A DNA stretch of 64,000 nucleotides from Melioribacteraceae bacterium (GTDB lineage Bacteria; Bacteroidota; Ignavibacteria; Ignavibacteriales; Melioribacteraceae). A model generated the notes under the pieces. It worked only from the letters and a program-made list of their open reading frames with translations. It was not told where the DNA came from and made no database searches. The translations under genes and the position numbers were made by a program. The stretch spans positions 248,001 to 312,000 of the forward strand of contig JAIPBD010000001.1 in NCBI GenBank assembly GCA_021739765.1. Reading direction: 5' to 3'. This document shows, piece after piece, positions 44,485 to 57,497 of this stretch (positions are counted from its first letter, which is position 1; each line of letters opens with the position of its first letter).

Positions 44485-45261
44485 TTAGTGGAATCCTACT
44501 ATTAAAGCCGAACGCCACCAGGTGTAATATTCGTTCTCTAATTCCTTTTTAGTCGGGAAAGGAAAATGAATAAATGTTTCCTGATCGCCGACAAAAATCC
44601 CGCTTTTTATCGTTCTGTAAAAAAGGTCGCGCTGCATAAATCGGATTACAGTTTTGTTCGGTTTATCTTCATCCATGTCGAGTTTTGTTAAACAGTCTCT
44701 CAAGTGATCAATGTTTGGATAGGGAAGGTCGTTATCTGAACCGTTGATAGGATCGGTTGCCAGATCATCCAATTTTAATTCAATAAAAACCAATTTTGGA
44801 ACCGAAACAGGCTGAGTTGTATCGGTTAAATTTTTTACGAAATCAATCGCGTTGAATCTGCTTGCAACCCGTGGAGTTGTTGGACAGATTTGTTGGTAAA
44901 GGTGAAGTTTTTGTTGTTGCGAGGCAACATATTCGCCTTTTTTCAATCCGAGTACTCGACCGTCATCGGTAACGAGATAAAGGTTTTTTAATTTTTCTAA
45001 AGGGACATGCTCCAATACCCGATAGATGGATAAATATTTGGAACGTTTTGGACTTCCGTCTGAATGGGGGACACACCGTTTTTCGATGTCTTCCATATTG
45101 AACCAATCGCTTTCAAAATCGGGATCGACTTCAAAAAACATAGCTTGCCCGCGGGTTCGTTTTCTTGTTCCCACAGCGAGGTAATTCCCAAATTCCTCCG
45201 GCGGAAGCATTGAAGCGATTAAAGCTTCGGGCATTAATGACAAATACAAATATCTTTTCAT
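44485..45261 (-). CDS. Protein of unknown function upstream of hppA
   Basis: 258 residues, no signal peptide, no membrane segment. The first 60 residues carry LPPEEFGNYLAVGTRKRTRGQAMFFEVD; aromatic-rich C terminus (TKKELENEYYTWWRSALIVGFH). Appears to be one folded domain with a few conserved-looking Asp/Trp positions; I cannot name a family. The 31-base gap suggests transcription together with hppA. Confidence 0.72.
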   Translation of the reverse strand: MKRYLYLSLMPEALIASMLPPEEFGNYLAVGTRKRTRGQAMFFEVDPDFESDWFNMEDIEKRCVPHSDGSPKRSKYLSIYRVLEHVPLEKLKNLYLVTDDGRVLGLKKGEYVASQQQKLHLYQQICPTTPRVASRFNAIDFVKNLTDTTQPVSVPKLVFIELKLDDLATDPINGSDNDLPYPNIDHLRDCLTKLDMDEDKPNKTVIRFMQRDLFYRTIKSGIFVGDQETFIHFPFPTKKELENEYYTWWRSALIVGFH

Positions 45262-45502
45262 GGTTTCCTCTTTTATATATTAAGACTGTTTTATCCTTTT
45301 GCAAACTAGAGCGATTTATTCTATTTACCGCAAAGAACGAATTGAGCTTATTTTCTCAGAAATCGTTTATAATTCTATAAAACGATAATTCTGTTTTAAT
45401 TTTTCGCTAAAATCAATCTTCTTTGATAAATTAACAGTAAAAGAAGCAATTATTTTGCCAATTCATTTATAAACAGTTTAGGCTGATTTCGAACTCATTT
45501 TG

Positions 45503-46843
45503 ATGAAAAAACATAACAAATCATCCTGGTTCAAACCGAGTAAATTCATTTACCTAATATTTCTATTTTCACTTCTGCTATTAGTATTGATTCATTTCGT
45601 GATTTCACCCCAGGCGAATCCTGAATCAGTTGAAAACAAATTACCGGTTACAATATATTTTGCCGATAACATTTCACTGGCACAGAGAGAAATCATCAAA
45701 CGTTTCAACTCGGAATACAATGGAAAAATAAAAGTTGAACTTGTTAATTTACCATTAGAGAAATTTAGTTCAGCCGAACGGAAACAACTTTTTACAAAAT
45801 ATTTGCGGAGTGAAAGCAATCAGATTGATGTTTTTTCAATCGATCAAGTTTGGATTCCGAGATTCGCGAAGTGGTCCGAAGATTTGCGTAAATTTTTCCC
45901 GGATGAAATCGAACAAAATATAATTGGCGAAGCTTTGACGCCTTGTATTTATAACAACCGACTCGTCGCTGCTCCTTTATATATTGATATGGGTGTAATG
46001 TATTACAGGTCCGATTTGATTTCTGAATTACCAAATTCCGCAATCCTTAAACGCACACTAGAAAAATCAATAACCTGGGAAGAGTTTATTGAATTGGGAG
46101 AAAAATATTTTTCTGATTCCGAGAGATTTTTCTTCTTCTCGGCAGATAATTACGAAGGATTGATTTGTTTTTTTATGGAGATTTACTCCGCTCAAAATTA
46201 CAATTCCGAACTACCGATCGAGATAGGCTCGGAACGAACATTAAGTTCATTCAAGTTTATTCAATCATTAATTAATGAAAATAAACTTACCCCAGCGGAA
46301 GTAACGAATATGCAGGAAACCGAAGTTTTGATTTCATATTTAGATTCAGATGGAATTTTTATTCGCGGCTGGCCAAACTCATTTAATTTTTTCGAACCGA
46401 GTGAAGAACACAAAAAGAAAATAGAAAAAATCAAAATAGTCCCTCTTCCGCATTTTAAGGGAAAACCAAAATCATATACTTTCGGCGGATGGAATTTAAT
46501 GTTATCGAAATTTTCTTCTAACAAAAAAGAAGCTGCGGAATTTATAAAATTTTGTCTAAGTGAAGAATCTCAACTGCTGATGTATGAAATGCAAGGATTT
46601 CTTCCATCGACTAAATCGTTCTACTTCTCCGATGATAATTCCACGGATTCCGGCAAAATTGAATTCTTTAATACAAATTTTGGGTATGGAATTTATCGTC
46701 CGAGAGTTGAAAATTACACACTATTTTCCTCAATACTTTCTGGTTCTCTTAATAAAGTTTTGAGACAAGAAATCGGAACAGATGAAGCAATTTTGGATGC
46801 GGAAAAAGAATTTGAATTGTTATCTGTGAGCAACGAAAAGTGA
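45503..46843 (+). CDS. Membrane-anchored extracellular solute-binding protein, sensory partner of the kinase
   Basis: 446 residues. A TTG lies three bases before the ATG I chose. N-terminal uncleaved-looking anchor (about residues 15-36), then a family 1 (sugar-type) solute-binding fold: PVTIYFADNISLAQREIIKRFN, IDVFSIDQVWIPRFAKWSEDL and AAPLYIDMGVMYYRSDLI, ending with the YTFGGWNLMLSKFSSNKKEAAEFIKFCLSEE segment. No ABC permease or ATPase lies nearby; the histidine kinase starts within its stop codon (GTGA), so the protein likely senses a sugar for that kinase rather than feeding a transporter (inference). First of three coupled signalling genes. Confidence 0.85.
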   Translation: MKKHNKSSWFKPSKFIYLIFLFSLLLLVLIHFVISPQANPESVENKLPVTIYFADNISLAQREIIKRFNSEYNGKIKVELVNLPLEKFSSAERKQLFTKYLRSESNQIDVFSIDQVWIPRFAKWSEDLRKFFPDEIEQNIIGEALTPCIYNNRLVAAPLYIDMGVMYYRSDLISELPNSAILKRTLEKSITWEEFIELGEKYFSDSERFFFFSADNYEGLICFFMEIYSAQNYNSELPIEIGSERTLSSFKFIQSLINENKLTPAEVTNMQETEVLISYLDSDGIFIRGWPNSFNFFEPSEEHKKKIEKIKIVPLPHFKGKPKSYTFGGWNLMLSKFSSNKKEAAEFIKFCLSEESQLLMYEMQGFLPSTKSFYFSDDNSTDSGKIEFFNTNFGYGIYRPRVENYTLFSSILSGSLNKVLRQEIGTDEAILDAEKEFELLSVSNEK

Positions 46844-48303
46844 AAATACTTCGCAAAGCTGAAAAATATAATTTCGAGTTACGGCATATAAGCCTGCTCT
46901 TTATGATGATAATTGTATTCGAAGTCGTTGTATTTTTTGTGATTAAGGACTCTCTCGGGGCATTTCTGAACAATACACAAGATTGGTACAGACGGTATTC
47001 CTCTGACAGAATAGCGAATTCAACCGCCAACTCGTTTGAAATGTTGATTGAAACCATTCGCCTGGATGCGGAAGTGACCGCAAACGAACGAAAAAAAATG
47101 ATTCAAAAATTTGACGTTTTGATGAATCAACAATTGGTAGAGGATGATATTATTGAAGTTTGTTTGTTTTTTTATTACAACAAAGAATTTTTTATTATTG
47201 ATGACGGTGAAGTACTATTTGAAAATTTTATCGAAAGGAGTGGCAACATTTCTCCTCCGATGAATGAATACGGAAAAGCAAAAAGTTTTTTCAATCTCGT
47301 GAAGAATGAAATACTCACTAATGAAATTCCCAAAACCGTCGTTGATTCCAACCAAGTTTTTCACAGCTTTATTCCTTTCGTGCCGGAGGGGGAGTTCTCG
47401 GGAATCATCTATATTCAGAGCAAACCTAACTTTTCAGAATTGGAAGGTGAGTTTTTAGCCAATTACGATTTAATGTCGTTTGCACTTTCGATACTGATTT
47501 TACTTGGTCTGCTGGTTGTATATAATATATCATCACGAATTGTGAAACAGAAAAACAAAACTCAAGAAGAGCTTTATGAACAAAAACAAAAGCTGCTTGA
47601 AGAAAGAATTAAACACGAAAAAGAATTTATTTTCACAAAAAGGATTTACCACGCCAATCACAAATCCGAAAGAATTATGGGATTTATCCAAGAGGATTTA
47701 GCAAAAGTTGAAGGCAATGATGAATTGAGTGAACGAATCTCAAAATATACAAGTTTTATTTCCCGCGTTGTTTATGATATGAAATGGTACGAACCACCGA
47801 TTAATACTATCCGCAATCCCTACTACAGAACGAACGTTAATGATGTGATTCGGTTTTTGGTGGACCATGTTTTTCAACGACTTACGGTTGAAACCGAAGC
47901 GATAAAGTTTAAAGTGGAACTTGATCCGAATTTTCCGGTGATTGGTATCAATGAGTTTGTGATTTGGGAAATTCTCGAACCATTGATCCAAAATAGTTTG
48001 TCGCACAACAGCGAACGGAATATTGAAATTACAATAACGACTGAGCACAATGTTGCCGCCGGCAAATCAATAATTTGGGTTCAAGATAATGGCGTAGGTA
48101 TAAAATCTGATTTGTTGGAAAAAGATGCCGATGGCGTAAAAATGATTTTTCACGAAAACATAAAACGTGAAAATGAATTCGGTGATCATTTCGGTTACGG
48201 CTGTTTTATAGCTTACAATATGGCTGTAAAAGGTTGCGGCTGGAAAATAGATGTGGAAAATTTGAGCCAAGGCGGCTGTAGATTTATTCTTGAATTAAAC
48301 TGA
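46840..48303 (+). CDS. Sensor histidine kinase
   Basis: 487 residues, GTG start overlapping the previous stop. Membrane segment at about 20-45, periplasmic domain to about 203, second segment about 205-226, then a coiled coil (EELYEQKQKLLEERIKHEKEF) and a catalytic domain with N box EPLIQNSLSHN, DNGVGIKSDL and GDHFGYGCFIAYNMAVKGCGW. A canonical HExxxP box is not seen: the region after the coiled coil reads RIYHANHKSERIMGF, with His271 or His274 as the likely phosphorylation site. The periplasmic domain probably meets the binding protein encoded just upstream. Followed by the response regulator. Confidence 0.9.
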   Translation: MKILRKAEKYNFELRHISLLFMMIIVFEVVVFFVIKDSLGAFLNNTQDWYRRYSSDRIANSTANSFEMLIETIRLDAEVTANERKKMIQKFDVLMNQQLVEDDIIEVCLFFYYNKEFFIIDDGEVLFENFIERSGNISPPMNEYGKAKSFFNLVKNEILTNEIPKTVVDSNQVFHSFIPFVPEGEFSGIIYIQSKPNFSELEGEFLANYDLMSFALSILILLGLLVVYNISSRIVKQKNKTQEELYEQKQKLLEERIKHEKEFIFTKRIYHANHKSERIMGFIQEDLAKVEGNDELSERISKYTSFISRVVYDMKWYEPPINTIRNPYYRTNVNDVIRFLVDHVFQRLTVETEAIKFKVELDPNFPVIGINEFVIWEILEPLIQNSLSHNSERNIEITITTEHNVAAGKSIIWVQDNGVGIKSDLLEKDADGVKMIFHENIKRENEFGDHFGYGCFIAYNMAVKGCGWKIDVENLSQGGCRFILELN

Positions 48304-48312
48304 GATTTACGA

Positions 48313-49758
48313 GTGCGAAAGAAGATCAAAATACTGCTGATAGAAGATGAAAGCTTCGACGCTTTGCGTGTCCAAAAAACTTTAGCATATTCGGATGAAA
48401 ACGAAATCGTAAAAATTTTTTCCGACGGCAAAACCGCCGTGGAATTTTTGAATGAAAATCACAATGAAATAGATATCGTGATTATGGATTTCCAGATTGC
48501 AGGCGGTTTAATGGGAAAAGATCTGATTAAAAAAATAAAAGAGATAAATATCTGTCTCCAAATCATAGTTATCACAAAAATGACTTTAAATATAAACGAC
48601 TACGATTTCGCTCAAAAGCTTCTTGATTCCGGCGCTTTTTGGTATTGCACTAAATTTCCGAATGACATCAAAGAATTAATTTATCAGCCGACTGATTTTA
48701 TAATCAGCGTGAAAAACGCGTTTGAAAAGAAAAAACTTGTTGAAGCACAGCAAAAAAGCAATACAAAATTCTCAAATGAAATTGAAAAAATACTTGACGC
48801 AAACAAACTTCTTGGTGATTCCAGCGAAATCAATAAAGTGAAAAAAATAATTTCGCATTACGGCCAATCAGATGGGAATGTTTTAATTGAAGGAGAATCC
48901 GGCACCGGAAAAGAACTCGCGGCCATAAATCTCCATTATTTGAGTAAGAGGAAATTCGATAATTTTGTTACGGTTAATTGTGCTGGAATTCCAAAAGATT
49001 TATTAGAGAGCGAATTATTCGGATTTGAAAAAGGTGCGTTCACCGGCGCAGATAAAGCTAAAAAAGGATTGTTAGAAATTGCCGACGGCGGAACGGTTTT
49101 CTTTGACGAAATTGGCGAACTGACACTTTCCGCCCAGGTTAAATTATTACGCTTTCTCGAGTCAGGCGATATTGAAAAGATCGGAAGGCAAAAACGGATT
49201 TCTGTTGATGTAAGGGTAATTGCCGCCACTAACCGTGATTTATTAAATATGACCGATGCCGGGGAATTTCGCGAAGATTTGTTTTTTCGGCTCAATGTTT
49301 TCCCCGTAAAAATTCCTCCATTGCGGGAAAGAAGATCCGACATAGTAATATTGCTTAAACATTTTCTTGGAAAATACGCCAAAGAATTTAATGTGGAAGT
49401 TCCTCAATTATCGCGCGAGCAGATTCACAAACTAAATTCTCTTGAATGGAAAGGCAATGTGCGTGAGTTACGCTCTGTTGCACAACGTATGCTTCTTGTT
49501 CCATTATCCGAGGATGAAAACGATCCGTTAAGTTTTATGCTTGAAAATTTGACTAGCCGAAATAATCCGTCGACAAACCTAAATTCTTTTATCGCAGTCG
49601 ATGAAATTATCTCGTTGAAAGATTTCAGACAAAAATCAGTGAAAGAATATGTCAGGTTCGTTCGAAAAAATTCGTCAACCGATATTGAAGCCGCTACAAA
49701 ATTGGGTATTTCTGCCTCAAATTATTCCCGTCTTGTGTCGACTCTGGAACTTAAATAA
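48313..49758 (+). CDS. Sigma-54-dependent response regulator (NtrC family)
   Basis: 481 residues, GTG start. Receiver domain with the phosphorylated Asp59 (IVIMDF); AAA+ domain with Walker A GESGTGKE (about 194-201), the sigma-54-contacting loop GAFTGA (about 241-246) and GGTVFFDEIGEL Walker B; then the FREDLFFRLNVF and PLRERRSDI segments. The C-terminal 45 residues end in DIEAATKLGISASNYSRLVSTLELK, a helix-turn-helix of Fis type that looks short. Two palindromes directly follow its stop and precede a sigma-54 promoter, so it most likely activates the downstream glucan-degradation genes. Confidence 0.95.
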   Translation: MRKKIKILLIEDESFDALRVQKTLAYSDENEIVKIFSDGKTAVEFLNENHNEIDIVIMDFQIAGGLMGKDLIKKIKEINICLQIIVITKMTLNINDYDFAQKLLDSGAFWYCTKFPNDIKELIYQPTDFIISVKNAFEKKKLVEAQQKSNTKFSNEIEKILDANKLLGDSSEINKVKKIISHYGQSDGNVLIEGESGTGKELAAINLHYLSKRKFDNFVTVNCAGIPKDLLESELFGFEKGAFTGADKAKKGLLEIADGGTVFFDEIGELTLSAQVKLLRFLESGDIEKIGRQKRISVDVRVIAATNRDLLNMTDAGEFREDLFFRLNVFPVKIPPLRERRSDIVILLKHFLGKYAKEFNVEVPQLSREQIHKLNSLEWKGNVRELRSVAQRMLLVPLSEDENDPLSFMLENLTSRNNPSTNLNSFIAVDEIISLKDFRQKSVKEYVRFVRKNSSTDIEAATKLGISASNYSRLVSTLELK

Positions 49759-49773
49759 TTCACAAAATGTGAA
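49759..49773. promoter_or_regulatory. Upstream activator site 1 (palindrome)
   Basis: TTCACA AAA TGTGAA, a 15-bp inverted repeat directly after the stop of the response-regulator gene. It matches the second site at 49781-49795 in arms and length; the centres are 22 bp apart, two helical turns, as expected for a dimer pair of an NtrC-type activator. Confidence 0.75.
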
Positions 49774-49780
49774 AATGATC

Positions 49781-49795
49781 TTCACAAATTGTGAA
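49781..49795. promoter_or_regulatory. Upstream activator site 2 (palindrome)
   Basis: TTCACAA A TTGTGAA, a 15-bp inverted repeat with seven-base perfect arms, 60 bp upstream of the -24 element. Same half-sites as the copy at 49759-49773. Confidence 0.75.
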
Positions 49796-49855
49796 CTATT
49801 TTATTACACCAAAATCATAAACCACGATCTCAGCCTTTAATCAAACTATTATCTC

Positions 49856-49871
49856 TGGCATTCTTTTTGCT
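49856..49871 (+). promoter_or_regulatory. Sigma-54 promoter of the glucan-degradation genes
   Basis: TGGCATTCTTTTTGCT against the consensus TGGCACGNNNNTTGCW: both invariant pairs (GG at -24, GC at -12) with exact spacing, and TTGCT perfect. Transcription should begin about 12 bases after the GC, near 49882, 24 bases before the start codon at 49906. Confidence 0.8.
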
Positions 49872-49905
49872 GAAATGTATTGTAAATAAAATTCAGGAGT
49901 CAAAA

Positions 49906-51495
49906 ATGAAAGTTCGTTTTTACATCGTATCACTTCTTCTACTTTTCGTATCATTAACAAACGCACAAATTAAAAACACGGTAACTTTTGTTGCCGATAT
50001 GACCGTTTTAATCGATAATGGTTTTGATCCCGCGGACCATCAACTTACGATTGAAGGATTAAACTGGGATAACGGCGAAGTTTCTGTTGTCGGAGATCGT
50101 CAACTAACTCTCGATCCTCAAAATCCCAGTCAGTACAAAACTCAATTGGTTTTAACTTCAGCGGCCGGTATGGTGGTTGGGGATACAGCGCGCTGGAAAT
50201 TTAAAGGCTCGCCGAATGAAGCTTTTTACGACGGTGGCTGGGAAGCTGGCGATCCGGTTACGGGATACGACGGTAGAGCGTTCGTATTTGCCGCTGATGA
50301 TACAACATTTGAGTTGGAAGCAGTCCAACCAAGAGTTGAAATTATATCCACCGGAATTGGAATTCAGAATAAAATAAAATTTCAAGCTGATTTAATAAAT
50401 ATTTTAGGTAGCGGACTCGGCTATTTCGATCCGACTCAAGATATTCTTGAAGTTCGCGGATTTTGGGGCTCTACGGAAGATAACGTATACGATGCTGTTT
50501 TAGTAGACGGCGATCCCGAAATGGTTCCCGATCTTTTCACCGTCGGTTTGTACACAACAGTTTTAACGGTTGAATTACCTGCTTCAGCACCACTTGGAGC
50601 ACAAACCGGATATAAATTTAAAGCGAGCCCCGATGCTCGGTTTTCAAACACCGGATGGGAAGTTGGCGGAAATAATTTATATACTTTTAGTGATGACGGA
50701 GATTCAGTTGATTTGGGTGTCGTTGTTCCTCGAATTACACCTGTCGCGAAATCGGATGATGAAGTTCAAGTCTTGTTTACGGTTAATATTCCGGAAGGTG
50801 CCGCAAACAGATACAACAACGCAATTATTCCCCGCGATTCTATCGAATTTGTATTTGTTAAGGGAGCTCCTTCACCTCTCGGAAGCTGGGCAGGAGATTG
50901 GACGATCGCGGATACGGTCGCTGCTGATTCAAAACTAGCTTTGCTTTATGATGACGGAACAAACGGAGACGAAGTTGCCAGTGATAATATTTGGTCGGCA
51001 ATCATAATATTCCCACCCGGAGAACCACTTGGCGGAATTACCTATAAATACGGCGCTTATTATCCGGGTGTTGAAGCGGATGCGGGTTCAAATCCGGGAT
51101 ATTTGGATAATTCAGCTCCATCAGGAATTGATCATGCCGCAACTATACCTGTTACCGACACCATAGTTGTTATAAAAGATACATGGGCAACCGTAGTTTC
51201 AAGTGTCAGAAAAATTGACGACAATGTTCCCGCACAAATTACATTGAAACAAAATTATCCAAATCCGTTTAACCCTGAAACAACAATCGAATACAGTTTG
51301 CCTGAAGTCGGTTTCGTTCAATTAAGTATTTATAATTCAATTGGTGAAGAAGTTCAGTTACTGGTTTCCGAAGAACAAAGAGCGGGAACTTATAGAGTTA
51401 ATTTCAAAGCTATGGATTTAGCAAGCGGAATGTATTTTTATCGTTTGAACTTGAATGGTTCGGTATCTGTCAAAAAAATGATTTTGCTTAAATAA
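49906..51495 (+). CDS. Secreted carbohydrate-binding-like T9SS protein
   Basis: 529 residues. The ATG at 49906 is chosen: it has AGGAG six bases upstream and a clean signal peptide (MKVRFYIVSLLLLFVSLTNAQ), while an in-frame TTG at 49867 lies inside the sigma-54 promoter. Two related beta domains follow (each with TARWKFKGSPNEAFYDGGWEAG-like or TGYKFKASPDARFSNTGWEVGG-like sections), then a third with PLGSWAGDWT, resembling starch-binding folds, and a T9SS sorting domain (QNYPNPFNPETTIEYSL). Likely a surface glucan-binding protein; first gene of the sigma-54-controlled cluster. Confidence 0.82.
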   Translation: MKVRFYIVSLLLLFVSLTNAQIKNTVTFVADMTVLIDNGFDPADHQLTIEGLNWDNGEVSVVGDRQLTLDPQNPSQYKTQLVLTSAAGMVVGDTARWKFKGSPNEAFYDGGWEAGDPVTGYDGRAFVFAADDTTFELEAVQPRVEIISTGIGIQNKIKFQADLINILGSGLGYFDPTQDILEVRGFWGSTEDNVYDAVLVDGDPEMVPDLFTVGLYTTVLTVELPASAPLGAQTGYKFKASPDARFSNTGWEVGGNNLYTFSDDGDSVDLGVVVPRITPVAKSDDEVQVLFTVNIPEGAANRYNNAIIPRDSIEFVFVKGAPSPLGSWAGDWTIADTVAADSKLALLYDDGTNGDEVASDNIWSAIIIFPPGEPLGGITYKYGAYYPGVEADAGSNPGYLDNSAPSGIDHAATIPVTDTIVVIKDTWATVVSSVRKIDDNVPAQITLKQNYPNPFNPETTIEYSLPEVGFVQLSIYNSIGEEVQLLVSEEQRAGTYRVNFKAMDLASGMYFYRLNLNGSVSVKKMILLK

Positions 51496-51511
51496 TTGAC
51501 CGGAATAATAA

Positions 51512-54172
51512 ATGAAGAAGCTGTTTTTAATCATGATATTGGCGTCAGGAATAATTGCTTCCCAAGATTTGCTTGTCTCAAACCCGGCATTCTCGGTTTA
51601 TGCTGATTCCGTCAGAGAGGGAAATTATAGTGGAATTGTGCTGAATTCCAAGTCAATTAAATCCAATTACCTGAAAACATTCAGTGAAGGATTTGATAGA
51701 ATAGTGAAATTTAAATTTTCTATCAACGGGTTAGACAATGAAGCGGTTTCGGGGAAAGACCATTCTGTTTATATGAACCCAAAAGACGGAAAATTTATCA
51801 CTCCGGTTTTTAAGTTTGGAGAGGACGATCCGGTCGGGGCTTCCCTTCCGCAAGGAGAAGATTTTGAAATCAAAATGAATCATTCTTTTGATGTCACATT
51901 CCGACTGGATATGAGATCTGTTTTAAAAGAACTTGAAGCAAACGGCAAGTTCAGATGTTTCGATGGTTCCGTTATTAAATCTGAGGATATGGACGCTCCT
52001 TATATTTTTGGCGGAACCACTCCTCTAAACTGGAGTTTTGAAGCTGATCCTAAATTAAGGATGACTGATGAAAACGGCGATGGAATTTTTGAAATAACTC
52101 TGACATTTGAAAATTCCTCCTCCCGTCCAATTAAAAATGGTTACGCATTTTGGAATTTGAGTGAGGATATTTCGGAGTTCCCCAAAATTTCGAGTAATGT
52201 AAAAATTACGGAAACACTCTACAATCTCTCCTTAGAAGAATTTAAACAGGATATCCGCGATGACGGAGCGCTGATGGCGGGTAAAAAGTGGACGGGTGTT
52301 TGGACTCGCGATATCAGTTACAGCATTTTACTTTCGCTCGCGGCAATTGCACCCGATGCTTGCAAAACAAGTTTGATGGCAAAGGTCGACGAAAAAAATA
52401 GACTCATTCAAGATACCGGAACGGGCGGATCATGGCCGGTTTCATCCGATAGAATTACGTGGATTTTAGCCGCTTGGGAAGTTTATCTTACAACAGGCGA
52501 TGAAGTATGGTTGAAGCAAATTTATCCAATTATTAAAAATTCATTGGACGTTGATTTGCTTTCAGTTTTAGATAAATCAACCGGATTGATTCGGGGTGAA
52601 TCATCTTTTCTTGATTGGCGCGAACAGACTTATCCAAAATGGATGGAGCCGAAAGATATTTACAAATCACAGTGTTTAGGAACAAATGCGGCTTTTTATC
52701 AATCATTTAAAATATTAGCCCAGATTTCGAAAATATTGGGCGAACCTAACGAAAAATATTATTCAACAGCCAAAATGATAAAAGATGGGATGAATAAATA
52801 TTTATTAAATGAAGATGGTGATCGTCTTTCGCAATATCTCTACGGGAATCAATTCCTAAGTGCGTCTGATAAAACAGAAGCGCTCGGAACATCACTTTCA
52901 GTCTTATTCGAAATATTAGAACCGGAAACATCCCGAAAAGTTATCACGAATTATCCGATTTCGAATTTCGGCATTCCATCAATCTCACCGCAAATAAGCG
53001 AAATTCCTCCTTATCATAATAATGGTATTTGGCCTTTCGTCGTTGGTTACTACGCTTGGGCTTCCGCCAAAACCGGGAATACATTTGAGCTCCAACATTC
53101 GATTGGTTCAATTTATCGGGTCGCTGCTTTATTTTTAACAAACAAAGAAAATTTTGTAGCTGAGAACGGTGATCCAGTGGGAACGGAAATTAACAGTGAC
53201 CGGCAACTTTGGTCGGTTGCCGCAAATTTGGCGATCGTTTATAGAATTTATTTGGGAATGAATTTTAGCGGAGATGGAATAAAATTCACACCGAATATTC
53301 CATTTGATGTGTATCGAAATATTTCCATTAGCGAATTCAAGTATAGGAATGCGAAGTTGGTAATTAACGTGAACGGATTCGGAAATGAAATTATTTCGTT
53401 CAAAATTAACGGGGAAGAGAGTGATGAAGCATTGTTCCCCGCCGATAATGAAGGGGATTATGTAATTGATATTATTCTTAAAAACAATATTGTTTCGGAT
53501 AAGGGTTTGATTCGGGAAGTGAAATTCGCGCCGGAAACGCCCAATGTTCAACTTGAAGAAACCCGACTGATATGGGATAAAATTGAATCTGCGGAAAATT
53601 ATGAGATTTTTCGCAATGGAAAATCCTTCGAAACTGTTTACAGGAATAGTTTTGATTTTGGCGAGTTAAAAGATTATGCCGAATTTCAAGTAAGAGCGGT
53701 GAATAAAAGCGGTGTTTATTCATTTTTATCCCAACCAGTTTCGATAATTCAGGAATTGAAATTTGTAAAACCTGCCGCAGAAAATTTTCTTTCACAAATT
53801 AATGGGGCGAGCGATAATAAATATCTGAGTTTAACCAAATCAGATAATTTAGAATTAAACTTCAATTTCGAAGTTCCCGAAACCGGTAAATATAAGGTTG
53901 ATTTCCGATACAATAATTCGAACGGCCCAATAAATACTGACAACAAATGCGCGATTCGTTCGGTATATGTTAACGATAACTATTCTTTTATTGCCGTACT
54001 TCCTCAAAGGGGAAGGGAAACGATTCATGAGTGGGGATATTCCAATTCGGAGTTCGTTAATTTAAAGGCAGGTAAAAACACTATCACGCTCAAGTTTGAA
54101 CCACATAATGAAAATATGAACATAGAAACGAATTCGCTATTGCTTGATCACCTAAGAATTATCAAATTGTAA
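51512..54172 (+). CDS. Secreted six-hairpin (alpha/alpha)6 glycosidase, probably alpha-glucan active
   Basis: 886 residues. Signal peptide about 1-17, a beta-sandwich N domain (to about 240), then a six-hairpin glycosidase domain: TGVWTRDISYSILLSLA (Trp264, Arg266, Asp267), GTGGSWPVSSDRITWILAAWEVY, ESSFLDWREQTYP and a late PFVVGYYAWASAKTGN. It resembles glucoamylase/debranching folds (GH15/GH63-like) without a specific family match. The C-terminal 150 residues include an Fn3-like and a CBM35-like segment ending HLRIIKL. No T9SS domain. It starts 16 bases after the preceding gene, in the alpha-glucan cluster. Confidence 0.75.
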   Translation: MKKLFLIMILASGIIASQDLLVSNPAFSVYADSVREGNYSGIVLNSKSIKSNYLKTFSEGFDRIVKFKFSINGLDNEAVSGKDHSVYMNPKDGKFITPVFKFGEDDPVGASLPQGEDFEIKMNHSFDVTFRLDMRSVLKELEANGKFRCFDGSVIKSEDMDAPYIFGGTTPLNWSFEADPKLRMTDENGDGIFEITLTFENSSSRPIKNGYAFWNLSEDISEFPKISSNVKITETLYNLSLEEFKQDIRDDGALMAGKKWTGVWTRDISYSILLSLAAIAPDACKTSLMAKVDEKNRLIQDTGTGGSWPVSSDRITWILAAWEVYLTTGDEVWLKQIYPIIKNSLDVDLLSVLDKSTGLIRGESSFLDWREQTYPKWMEPKDIYKSQCLGTNAAFYQSFKILAQISKILGEPNEKYYSTAKMIKDGMNKYLLNEDGDRLSQYLYGNQFLSASDKTEALGTSLSVLFEILEPETSRKVITNYPISNFGIPSISPQISEIPPYHNNGIWPFVVGYYAWASAKTGNTFELQHSIGSIYRVAALFLTNKENFVAENGDPVGTEINSDRQLWSVAANLAIVYRIYLGMNFSGDGIKFTPNIPFDVYRNISISEFKYRNAKLVINVNGFGNEIISFKINGEESDEALFPADNEGDYVIDIILKNNIVSDKGLIREVKFAPETPNVQLEETRLIWDKIESAENYEIFRNGKSFETVYRNSFDFGELKDYAEFQVRAVNKSGVYSFLSQPVSIIQELKFVKPAAENFLSQINGASDNKYLSLTKSDNLELNFNFEVPETGKYKVDFRYNNSNGPINTDNKCAIRSVYVNDNYSFIAVLPQRGRETIHEWGYSNSEFVNLKAGKNTITLKFEPHNENMNIETNSLLLDHLRIIKL

Positions 54173-54187
54173 AGAAAGATCATTTTT

Positions 54188-56209
54188 ATGAAACAAAAAT
54201 ATATAATTTTATTTCTGCTCTTAACTTCAAATCTAATTCCGGCACAGTCAATTAGTGAACTGAATAACGACAAAGCGAGATACAATCCCGGTGATGATGT
54301 TATTACTACTGTTGAGTTTGATGGGAATGTGTCCGGTTACACACTTACAGCAAAATTTCATTTTTTCCTTTCAATAAAAGATACATTGAATTATGAACTG
54401 ATAAATTCTGATAATCTCAATATTAATTGGAAAGCTCCTCAGGCTGATTACAGAGGATACTTGATGGAAGTTCAATTGCGCAACCCGGATGATTCGGTTG
54501 TGAGTGCTAAATCAATCGGAATAGATGTCTCATCCGATTGGGCGAAATTTCCACGTTATGGTTTTCTCTCAAGTTACGGGAATTTGAATCCGACTTCGAT
54601 GGAATATTTTGTAAACAACTTGAAGCGGTTTCACATTAACGGAATTCAATTTTATGATTATCACTGGAAACATCATCTGCCCCTAAAGGGTACTGTTGAG
54701 AATCCGTCAGCAACTTGGAATGATCTTGCAAATAGGACAATTTATTTTAATACTGTTAAAGGTTATATCGATTTAGCGCATTCATTTAATATGAAAGCAA
54801 TGGCGTATAACTTACTGTTCGGATCATTTGATGATGCGCCTTCGGATGGAGTCCCGACTGATTGGCGATTATTTAATGATGCCGCGGCTTCTATTCCGGC
54901 AATTCACGACCTTCCCGATAATTGGGTGAGTGATATTTTTTTGATGGATATTTCCAATTCTTTATGGAACGCACACATCATTCACGAAATGAAAAATTCA
55001 ATTTCGGCTCTCGGATTTGATGGCTGGCATGTCGACCAACTCGGAGATTTAGGCAGTAAATACAATTCCGAAAACCGGCGGATAATTTTGAGAGATTATT
55101 ACAGACCGTTTTTGGAGGCGGCGAAGGATTCATCGATCGGTAATTTAGTAATGAATGCCGTTAACCAATATGGGCAATCGCAAATTGCGGATTCACCGGT
55201 TGATTTTCTATACACCGAGGTTTGGTCTCCAAACCACGGTTATAGAGATTTGGCGACAATCATTCTTACGAATAATTTTTACGGAGATAATAAACTGAAT
55301 ACGGTTCTCGCCGCTTATGTGAACTACGGAAAATCAAGTGGAACGTTTAATACACCATCCGTTTTATTTGCCGATGCTGTAATTTTCGCTTCTGGTGGTG
55401 CTCATCTGGAATTAGGCGAACATATGCTTTCTCACGAATATTTCCCCTCAAGCAAACTTGCAATGTCGAAAACACTCCAATCTGCTTTAATAAATTATTA
55501 TGATTTTTCCGTCGCTTATCAAAATTTGCTGCGGGATAATGTTGAAACAAATGACTACACGCTCGAAAGTGATACCACAATTCTTTTTACCGATTGGCCT
55601 CCTGCTCAAGGTCAAGTCTGGGCTTTCCCTCGAAAGAAGGATAACAGATATATTTTTCATCTCATAAATTTTGTTGATGCTCCGACAATGGATTGGGTTG
55701 ATGATAATGCTGCACAAATCACTCCTTCGCTAATACAAAATATTCCGGTACATACGGAAATTGATGAACAAGCAACTAAAGTGTGGATTGCATCTCCCGA
55801 CTTTTTAGAAGCTGTTCCGGTTGAAGTTCCGTTCGAACAGAATGGAAAAACGGTTAGTTTCTCCGTACCGGATCTGAAATATTGGACGATGGTTGTTATC
55901 GAAACCGACGCGCCGAATTCAGCAGAATCAGATGAAGAAATAGGAAATAATTTTAAACTATATCAGAATTATCCCAATCCGTTTAACCCGAACACAACTA
56001 TAAGATACAGCTTGAAAGAATCCTCAAATGTAAAAATTAAAGTTTTTGACAGCATTGGAACACTTGTAGATACTTTGGTCGACGATGTGAAAGCTCCCGG
56101 TGAATACTCTGTTAAATTTAACGCTTCTGCTCTTGCAAGTGGAGTTTATTTTTATCAATTTTATACCGCAAGTTTCATTCAAATCAAAAAAATGATGGTT
56201 TTGAAGTAA
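54188..56209 (+). CDS. GH66 dextranase-like glucanase with T9SS sorting domain
   Basis: 673 residues. Signal peptide to about residue 19, an N-terminal beta domain, then a TIM barrel with the GH66 pattern: FLSSYGNLNPTSMEYFVNNLKRFHINGIQFYDYHWKHH in parts, GFDGWHVDQLGDLG (Asp283 the likely nucleophile) and LYTEVWSPNHGY (Glu344 the likely acid/base). GH66 enzymes cut alpha-1,6-glucan (dextran) endolytically or make cyclic isomaltooligosaccharides; a CBM35 insertion of the cyclising type is not visible. T9SS domain QNYPNPFNPNTTIRYS at the end. Second hydrolase of the cluster. Confidence 0.85.
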   Translation: MKQKYIILFLLLTSNLIPAQSISELNNDKARYNPGDDVITTVEFDGNVSGYTLTAKFHFFLSIKDTLNYELINSDNLNINWKAPQADYRGYLMEVQLRNPDDSVVSAKSIGIDVSSDWAKFPRYGFLSSYGNLNPTSMEYFVNNLKRFHINGIQFYDYHWKHHLPLKGTVENPSATWNDLANRTIYFNTVKGYIDLAHSFNMKAMAYNLLFGSFDDAPSDGVPTDWRLFNDAAASIPAIHDLPDNWVSDIFLMDISNSLWNAHIIHEMKNSISALGFDGWHVDQLGDLGSKYNSENRRIILRDYYRPFLEAAKDSSIGNLVMNAVNQYGQSQIADSPVDFLYTEVWSPNHGYRDLATIILTNNFYGDNKLNTVLAAYVNYGKSSGTFNTPSVLFADAVIFASGGAHLELGEHMLSHEYFPSSKLAMSKTLQSALINYYDFSVAYQNLLRDNVETNDYTLESDTTILFTDWPPAQGQVWAFPRKKDNRYIFHLINFVDAPTMDWVDDNAAQITPSLIQNIPVHTEIDEQATKVWIASPDFLEAVPVEVPFEQNGKTVSFSVPDLKYWTMVVIETDAPNSAESDEEIGNNFKLYQNYPNPFNPNTTIRYSLKESSNVKIKVFDSIGTLVDTLVDDVKAPGEYSVKFNASALASGVYFYQFYTASFIQIKKMMVLK

Positions 56210-56237
56210 TTAAGAATCAATAAAACTTGGAGGTGTT

Positions 56238-57497
56238 ATGAAGAAATTATTTACCGCAGTTTTGATAATTGTTTTTAGCACAGTTTTATCTGCCCAGACA
56301 TATTATGTTGCGGGTGATCATCAGGGATGGGTCAACAATTCAGATTTAATGTACGATGACGGGACAAATGGTGATGAAAATGCAAGTGATGGAATTTATT
56401 CACGAGAAATGACGGTTGCATCGACTGGCTATCATGGCTGGAAAGTTACTGATGGAACTTGGGATATTACTTGGCCAACAGCAAATTCATGGTATTATAC
56501 AACTTCTGCCGATCAAGCAGTTCTGTTTACTCTTAATACAAATGAAAATACCGATGGCTGGTATGCTACACAAAATGTCGTTAACACAAATGAAACGAAA
56601 CCTACAACACTAACAGCTGTTGGTAATTGGCAATCTCAGATCTCAGGTGGTAATTGGAATAATAGCGATGCGTCTACCACCATGTGGGATGATGGTACAA
56701 ATGGAGATTGGGCTGCCGGCGATGGAATTTATTGCTATCATACAAATTCGTTGGTGGCAGGTAATTATCAAATAAAAAGTGTTTACACTGGTTCTTGGAA
56801 CGGTTGGGGAATTGATGGAAGAAGTGAGGATGCCCAAAATCTTGAATTCGCGACCACTAGCAACGATCAAGATGTCTATTTTTATACAGATGTAAATACT
56901 GGAAGAATAACCCTGGTGCTTGATGATCCTCTACCTGTCGAACTTGGAACCTTTTCCGCTTCAGTAAAAGAAAATGCAATTGAATTGAATTGGTCAACAG
57001 CCACCGAAATTAACAACTACGGTTTCGAAGTTGAAAGATCGATTGATGAAGGAAACTCATTTGCAAAAATTGGATTTGTTGAAGGAATCGGGAATACGGT
57101 TATTCCTCAAGATTACAAATTTGTTGATAGCGCACCATACTTCGGTGCGGCTGAATACAGATTAAAACAAATCGATTTTGACGGTAAATTCGAATACAGC
57201 AACGTAATCGAAATCGAATTCGGATCTAAACCAAATGAAATCGAATTAGCTCAAAATTATCCGAATCCATTCAATCCGACTACAACCATAAATTTCACAT
57301 TGTTGAAAGAAACAAATGTATCATTGGTTGTTTACAATCAATTGGGCGAGCTGGTTGAAAATTTAATTCAGGGAGTCAAGCCGGCAGGAAAGTATTCGGT
57401 CAATTTCAACGCCATTCAATTAACCTCCGGAATTTATTTCTACAAACTAAAAACCGAAGATTTCACTCAAGTTCGCAAGATGATGTTGATGAAATAA
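56238..57497 (+). CDS. Secreted starch-binding-like T9SS protein
   Basis: 419 residues. Signal peptide (1-19, ending LSAQ) and two copies of an X25/pullulanase-type binding module: AGDHQGWVNNSDLMYDDGTNGDENASDGIY and VGNWQSQISGGNWNNSDAST, with GDWAAGDGIYCY, each with a Ca2+-like DGTNGD loop. Then an Fn3-like region (LGTFSASVKENAIELNWSTATE, about 237-330) and a T9SS domain QNYPNPFNPTTTINFTL. Probably binds an alpha-glucan on the cell surface. SD GGAGG seven bases upstream. Last gene of the cluster; a strong terminator follows. Confidence 0.85.
   Translation: MKKLFTAVLIIVFSTVLSAQTYYVAGDHQGWVNNSDLMYDDGTNGDENASDGIYSREMTVASTGYHGWKVTDGTWDITWPTANSWYYTTSADQAVLFTLNTNENTDGWYATQNVVNTNETKPTTLTAVGNWQSQISGGNWNNSDASTTMWDDGTNGDWAAGDGIYCYHTNSLVAGNYQIKSVYTGSWNGWGIDGRSEDAQNLEFATTSNDQDVYFYTDVNTGRITLVLDDPLPVELGTFSASVKENAIELNWSTATEINNYGFEVERSIDEGNSFAKIGFVEGIGNTVIPQDYKFVDSAPYFGAAEYRLKQIDFDGKFEYSNVIEIEFGSKPNEIELAQNYPNPFNPTTTINFTLLKETNVSLVVYNQLGELVENLIQGVKPAGKYSVNFNAIQLTSGIYFYKLKTEDFTQVRKMMLMK

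Follow-up and report, generated by a model that had tools for sequence, protein, structure and literature searches.

The 64,000-nucleotide stretch of Melioribacteraceae DNA analysed here (the window; positions 248,001 to 312,000 of contig JAIPBD010000001.1) contains a triad of signalling genes, encoding a solute-binding protein (SBP), a histidine kinase (HK) and a response regulator (RR), followed by two palindromes, a sigma-54 promoter and a four-gene operon (Table 1). We read this locus as a three-component sugar switch, with a probability of roughly 0.7, in which we infer the ligand, the protein contact, phosphotransfer, induction and the enzyme activities. The SBP, of the trehalose/maltose type, would be held in the inner membrane by its N-terminal helix, apparently detached from ABC transport, and would bind an alpha-1,6-gluco-oligosaccharide (isomalto-oligosaccharide) in the periplasm. 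The liganded SBP would dock on the HK ectodomain, the activated HK would phosphorylate the NtrC-type RR, and RR dimers, bound to the palindrome pair at a spacing of two helical turns, would assemble and contact sigma-54 polymerase 60 bp downstream, so turning on expression of a GH66 dextranase, a six-hairpin glycosidase and two surface proteins of the type IX secretion system (T9SS). The computed basis for this reading is the gene content, the near-obligate triad, the co-inheritance of its members, the geometry of operator and promoter and the match between triad lineage and operon type. Beyond the window, it seems rather probable that such triads constitute a lineage-wide and undescribed class of regulator, with a tethered, ex-transport SBP as the sensor for each operon, an HK relay with its own motif and tandem palindromes 22 bp apart that fire sigma-54 promoters. 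The window operator and recognition helix would have co-diverged, insulating the dextran switch from two sister triads of its own cell.

The triad is nearly obligate as a three-gene unit. Searching with the SBP over 59 genomes, the window's own included, found matches in 40, two of these weak only, and 60 of the 61 matches, at E 7.3e-72 or better and with the window excluded, were taken as a sample. HK and RR genes are located beside the SBP gene in 58 of these 60 loci, and the two loci without them (L061, L080) are cut off by contig ends. For a second, partly overlapping sample, selected by the HK, the genomes of 84,980 species were scanned, which yielded 264 encoding stretches, the best 80 of which were used. 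Gene calling recovered the HK in 77 of the 80, and SBP and RR as well in 70; with six problem loci rechecked by tblastn, the triad is complete in 74 of 80. Four incomplete loci are at contig ends (L106, L109, L118, L174) and two are true exceptions, L125 having no SBP and L141 no RR. The linkage of an SBP gene to kinase and regulator genes that defines SBP-assisted three-component systems is therefore present in both samples. Most records in the HK-selected sample are named as Ignavibacteria/Melioribacteraceae, unclassified Bacteroidota, Calditrichota, KSB1 or Kryptoniota, with single records labelled Deltaproteobacteria, Caldisericaceae and Chlorobiota, and the HK is present in 42 of 395 genomes of a phylum-wide sample, in which at most three candidates were scored per genome. 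Cultivated bacteria with a triad include Melioribacter roseus and Stygiobacter electus (L162). RpoN is encoded in 57 of the 59 relatives, and both genomes without RpoN are also without an SBP match. Sequence comparison thus portrays the triad as a clade-wide regulator family that serves several sugars and is not peculiar to the window locus, and the window triad as one divergent member of this large family, with a changed operator. The original prediction for this DNA, made from its sequence, had proposed regulatory linkage, sigma-54 control and a binding protein recruited as a sensor. Comparison over 119 distinct HK loci supports the linkage, the sigma-54 control and a binding protein that forms part of the sensor, with the triad recurring across many relatives' loci.

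The identities first proposed for the three signalling genes are borne out by Pfam domains. The nearest solved structures to the SBP are MalE3 (6dtq, E 3.2e-41) and the trehalose/maltose-binding protein TMBP (1eu8, 1e-36), whose fold, that of ABC sugar-binding proteins, it retains. A conserved patch of the SBP is located near residues 88-102. This fold would also suit a protein that serves an ABC importer encoded elsewhere, its co-transcription with a two-component system then being incidental, but this is very improbable as no ABC permease is present among the window neighbours or the neighbour representatives scanned (chosen representatives, not every neighbour), the linkage to HK and RR holds in 74 of 80 loci, and the N-terminus has a hydrophobic segment but no lipobox, a helix anchor without a lipobox being present in 112 of 112 family SBPs. 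The HK has no match to a HisKA-type Pfam domain and its residues H271 and H274 are invariant across 57 sequences, consistent with the unusual phospho-acceptor region noted earlier. A structure model of the HK has an ordinary core of dimerization/phosphotransfer and catalytic domains (DHp-CA) plus a folded ectodomain. The latter has no Pfam match above cut-off and structure comparisons are dominated by the catalytic core, but the secondary structure of the model suggests a PAS/CACHE-like domain. In the RR, a receiver and a sigma-54 AAA domain score over cut-off and the GAFTGA motif is visible in the translation, as in NtrC-type enhancer-binding regulators. A DNA-binding helix-turn-helix gave no Pfam match in this protein or in that of the relative L046, and was assigned by eye as a probable C-terminal element. 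The SBP and HK genes overlap by 4 bp (GTGA) and the gap from HK to RR is 9 bp, so that translational coupling, originally claimed for all three genes, is plausible, with true overlap confined to the SBP-HK pair.

In the family as a whole, the control region consists of two 15-bp palindromes, TTATYA-N3-TRATAA, ~22 bp apart and located 60-80 bp ahead of the -24 element of a sigma-54 promoter. Near-identical palindrome pairs are present in 8 of 107 post-RR regions at a score of at least 3, versus 0.3 in controls. With a refined matrix, 50 of the 107 pass a threshold passed by 2% of shuffled controls, a count that is partly circular because the matrix was trained on these regions. Applied to whole loci (118 loci, 1.88 Mb), the matrix identified 94 strong pairs in 62 loci, 92 of them intergenic, and none in shuffled sequence; pairs away from the RR lie outside the training set, and the pair count is inflated by closely related loci. 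Thirty-eight of the 94 are positioned just after the RR gene, 21 before the SBP gene and the rest mostly between other genes, with spacings that peak at 22 (50 cases), 23 (21) and 21 bp (12). When pairs were sought whatever the sequence of their palindromes, there were 69, versus 1 in shuffled intergenic sequence, and those not of the TTAT type are limited to the window, L069 and, weakly, L058 and L151. When anchored on a pair, sigma-54-like sites scoring at least 18 are found in 17 of 40 cases versus 0.58 expected by shuffling, with 1 on the reverse strand; scoring used sigma-54 consensus weights, and the window was added by hand. Unanchored sites at this score are present within 600 bases after the RR gene in 39 of 107 regions (6.4 when shuffled, 5 on the reverse strand), and in 13 of 97 regions upstream of the SBP gene. 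The enrichment is therefore modest over the whole 600 bases and sharp once anchored on the palindrome pair. The 21 pairs before SBP genes at first suggested autoregulation, but in the four scanned of 17 such loci, the divergent neighbour encodes a GH125, GH3 or MFS protein, and these pairs may serve that gene instead of the SBP.

Both the paired palindromes and the near-perfect sigma-54 promoter that had been predicted between the RR gene and the operon are present. The palindromes directly follow the RR stop codon and are the only two zero-mismatch sites for TTCACAAWWTGTGAA in the 4.54-Mb genome. The promoter sequence, TGGCATTCTTTTTGCT, is the sole zero-mismatch sigma-54 match within the 64 kb, and the genome has a single sigma-54 gene, the absence of which would have spoken against the original prediction. 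If one mismatch is tolerated, the 64 kb contains 2 matches versus 3.25 expected by chance, so that the hexamers alone are weak proof and the argument for the promoter rests on its position and on the relatives. Paired upstream sites and a -24/-12 promoter are as expected for an NtrC-type regulator. A one-mismatch sigma-54-like site, at 45445-45460, lies on the same strand as, and upstream of, a gene (44485-45261, minus strand) for a 258-amino-acid protein without a Pfam or NCBIfam match; the chance expectation covers such matches.

The window palindromes differ in sequence from the family type but maintain the family geometry exactly (22 bp and 60 bp). Their arms are TTCACA rather than TTATYA, and the RR recognition region is LGISASNYSRLVSTLELK where the consensus is LGLAPPNYYRMCKELGLK. 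A search for TTCACA arms in 252 loci found them only in the two loci that cover the window itself. TGTGA/TCACA half-sites resemble CRP-type sites and, given arms so unlike the family consensus, the pair might belong to another regulator, of the CRP type for example, with the triad acting elsewhere. This is improbable given the exact family geometry, the location immediately downstream of the RR stop codon, the absence of other exact sites from the genome and the concurrent divergence of the RR recognition region. We argue for that concurrent divergence but not for a code, as L143, L145 and L153 have partly window-like recognition regions but retain TTATCA-like sites, leaving a simple helix-operator code unsupported. 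Family-type pairs occur at only two places in the window genome, G000:C15:29061-29097 (L255), preceding a GH30 gene, and G000:C30:36849-36882 (L256), preceding an operon with a GH2 mannosidase-like gene among its members. These are plausibly the targets of the two other triads of this genome.

Table 1. Genes and control elements of the triad locus, in window coordinates.
Feature	Position	Strand	Support
SBP, membrane-anchored sugar-type solute-binding protein, proposed sensor	45503..46843	+	PF13416 E 2.3e-19
HK, histidine kinase; sensor domain periplasmic, phospho-acceptor motif of its own (H271, H274)	46840..48303	+	HATPase_c 7.2e-9
RR, NtrC-type sigma-54 response regulator	48313..49758	+	Response_reg, Sigma54_activat 1.7e-64, AAA_lid_14
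Palindrome 1 TTCACAAAATGTGAA, proposed RR site	49759..49773	.	15 bp
Palindrome 2 TTCACAAATTGTGAA, proposed RR site	49781..49795	.	15 bp; 22 bp from palindrome 1
Sigma-54 promoter TGGCATTCTTTTTGCT	49856..49871	+	60 bp past palindrome 2
T9A, secreted T9SS-tailed protein, possibly glycan-binding	49906..51495	+	Por_Secre_tail
Six-hairpin glycosidase-like protein, without T9SS tail	51512..54172	+	Bac_rhamnosid6H 1.5e-10, GDE_C 5.1e-8
GH66 dextranase-like enzyme with T9SS tail	54188..56209	+	PF13199 4e-179
T9B, secreted T9SS-tailed protein with choice-of-anchor X and X25-like stretches	56238..57497	+	NF041940 64 bits; Por_Secre_tail

The members of the triad have been inherited together. For the 102 triads in which SBP, HK and RR are all close to full length, correlations between pairwise distances are r = 0.81 for SBP-HK, 0.88 for HK-RR and 0.78 for SBP-RR, with maxima over 200 permutations of 0.11, 0.14 and 0.11, respectively. 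The triad phylogeny also follows operon type. On the SBP tree, an alpha-glucan label requires 3 changes versus 8.8 when shuffled and a trehalase/MFS label 3 versus 5.9, with 0 of 500 shufflings as low in either case; the alpha-glucan label requires 6 changes on the HK tree, a number reached or undercut by 1 of 500 shufflings, and 4 on the RR tree (0 of 500). These results bear on the possibility that the HK itself senses the signal through its PAS/CACHE-like ectodomain, with the SBP as an accessory for scaffolding, ligand delivery or tuning of sensitivity. The ectodomain is folded in the model, CuaSR of Ruminiclostridium cellulolyticum reportedly responds, less efficiently, to cellobiose without CuaD (PMC10384115), and AauS may bind its ligand directly (PMC7386598). 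We consider this unlikely, as nearly every triad has kept the SBP, whose sugar-binding fold is intact and whose tree follows operon type, although this leaves room for additional direct sensing by the HK.

Same-strand genes after the RR are in view for 90 of 115 distinct RR-bearing triads. Neighbour clusters were each identified by one representative, with Pfam scans on chosen representatives rather than all, and the recurrent clusters are SSF symporters (41 runs), TonB-dependent receptors (39), T9SS proteins with a CBM9 domain (26), a large protein without identity (25), GH2 (18), GH5 (14), GDSL esterases (11) and PorV-like proteins (11). Other representatives beside triads include GH16, GH3, GH9, trehalase, GH65 and MFS, and the operon types adjoining triads are for alpha-glucan, mannan-type glycans and trehalose. 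The triads of L072, L073, L077 and L079 adjoin genes for MFS, trehalase (GH37) and GH65 proteins, in what looks like a trehalose form of the triad switch. In L055, L104 and L108, a gene for a UvrA-like ATPase follows the triad in place of sugar genes (L055 was scanned and the others share its cluster). The large protein, of up to ~1,200 amino acids, is encoded after the TonB-dependent receptor (L046:12046-15636, plus strand, for the cluster of 25 runs); the representative scanned has no Pfam family and another member has only a weak T9SS-tail match. Given that the window genome has no SusD by PF07980, the large protein may fill the role of a SusD-like partner in this lineage.

In the relatives, the alpha-glucan gene order is triad, SSF symporter, TonB-dependent receptor, large protein, PorV-like protein, T9A, six-hairpin protein and GH66, with the six-hairpin gene earlier in some. 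The window and L092 have only the triad, T9A, six-hairpin protein, GH66 and T9B, and so lack the SSF, TonB-dependent receptor and PorV-like genes; the self-contained locus first described is, therefore, not general. Import is perhaps served from elsewhere in the window genome, as its nearest operon-type TonB receptor (42% identical) is on C13 and its nearest SSF (50%) on C3. The window operon does not have the SusD-type lipoprotein and SusC-type receptor that define a classical SusCD locus, and PF07980, the one SusD model tried, has no match in the genome. The original prediction that SusCD and hybrid two-component systems (HTCS) are absent thus stands for the locus, although HTCS-like Y_Y_Y proteins over cut-off are encoded at 8 places elsewhere in the genome (frames of ~1,000-2,200 amino acids), and two kinds of sugar-sensing regulator, HTCS-like proteins and triads, may therefore coexist in one genome.

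The four downstream genes are separated by 15-28 bp. They had been predicted to encode four secreted proteins, and the GH66 and six-hairpin types are confirmed, with T9SS tails on three of the four and none on the six-hairpin protein. The label of glucan-binding-like given to the two T9SS proteins draws on matches below cut-off, namely weak X25/CBM20 matches in the T9A homologue of L046 and 20.8 bits to X25 in T9B (cut-off 27). The six-hairpin protein has an (alpha/alpha)6 structure model and remote fold matches at 9-19% identity but no match to a Protein Data Bank sequence at E 0.01; compared with GH133, GH78, GH15 and GH94, it has Pfam matches to two families and otherwise remote folds only. 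The GH66 identity is secure, with alignment to positions 2-546 of the 546 of PF13199, and the nearest solved structure is 8iu8 (E 2.4e-145). Like Flavobacterium/Bacteroides-type GH66 endo-dextranases (8iu8, NF052487) it aligns over the full catalytic length, but it has a T9SS tail and scores 626 bits on NF052487, below the cut-off of 730. As cyclo-isomaltooligosaccharide glucanotransferases are also close (9sjg, E 4.4e-126), it could be a transferase instead of a dextranase. GH66 homology points to an alpha-1,6-glucan as the likely substrate. In 392 genomes, there are 22 full-length GH66 genes, and in 10 of these (G000, G014, G031, G056, G057, G111, G167, G172, G180, G306) a triad gene is in the same run, with the RR alone in view in G306. 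In L240 (G350:C192), T9A, six-hairpin protein, GH66 and T9B are arranged as in the window, with GH3 upstream and no triad in view.

Several observations weigh against the proposed switch. Fifty-six of the 118 loci have no strong palindrome pair. The family matrix fits the window pair poorly (8.1 bits, threshold 7.7), and the case for the window's operator is accordingly one of geometry and uniqueness. The window sits on a long branch of the SBP tree, and its grouping there with other alpha-glucan triads is weakly supported (57). Nine of the 22 GH66 loci are cut by contig ends and three (G033, G130, G350) have no triad in the stretch covered, so that dextranase and triad are separable.

PgtA is a regulator of the NtrC/sigma-54 type and AauR is also of the sigma-54 type, the DNA-binding domain of HTCS is of the AraC type, and to our knowledge there is no palindrome-pair code for PgtABC. 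PgtC-PgtB-PgtA of Salmonella, which senses 3-phosphoglycerate, has a sensor protein outside the membrane, a membrane kinase and a response regulator that switch on genes for use of the compound sensed, as proposed for the triad, but its ligand is a phosphorylated acid and its target a transporter gene (PMC11077982); against the PgtA model NF047793, the RR of the window reaches 99 bits (cut-off 650) and so falls outside PgtABC. In CuaD-CuaS-CuaR of R. cellulolyticum, alongside which XylFII-LytS is named, a sugar SBP encoded beside the kinase and regulator binds to the ectodomain of the kinase and controls genes for sugar use in response to cellobiose, but CuaD is a lipoprotein, the target operon encodes an ABC importer and the part of the report used does not mention sigma-54 dependence of CuaR (PMC10384115). 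The triad has instead a helix-anchored SBP, an NtrC-type RR and, as targets, secreted enzymes, SSF/MFS transporters and TonB systems. AatJ-AauS-AauR of Pseudomonas similarly combines an SBP, kinase and regulator that act through a regulator-binding motif, but senses aspartate and glutamate, and its SBP, AatJ, belongs to an ABC importer, AatQMP (PMC7386598). By analogy, the triad probably works like these three systems while belonging to neither PgtABC nor CuaDSR. In Bacteroides, a local membrane sensor, the HTCS, also switches a polysaccharide operon, but has kinase and regulator in one protein, unlike the three proteins plus sigma-54 of the triad (PMC11253607). The part used of the Melioribacter roseus genome paper reports SusCDE for starch and dextran hydrolysis and does not mention a triad (PMC3534657). 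No description of the SBP-HK-RR triad was found in the open-access PMC literature, judged by titles and abstract openings.

The triad looks like an undescribed way to switch on sugar-degrading operons in a poorly studied lineage, and although the window locus is real and coherent, the wider triad family is the more interesting find. If this is correct, transporter-type binding proteins would have been matched, operon by operon, as tethered sensors, and sigma-54 would be added to the known controls of polysaccharide operons. The Ignavibacteria, Calditrichota and KSB1, known mostly from metagenomes, would have a readable code for sugar regulation, in which regulons would be predictable from sequence by the palindrome pair and sigma-54 geometry, and the inducer by the clade of the SBP.

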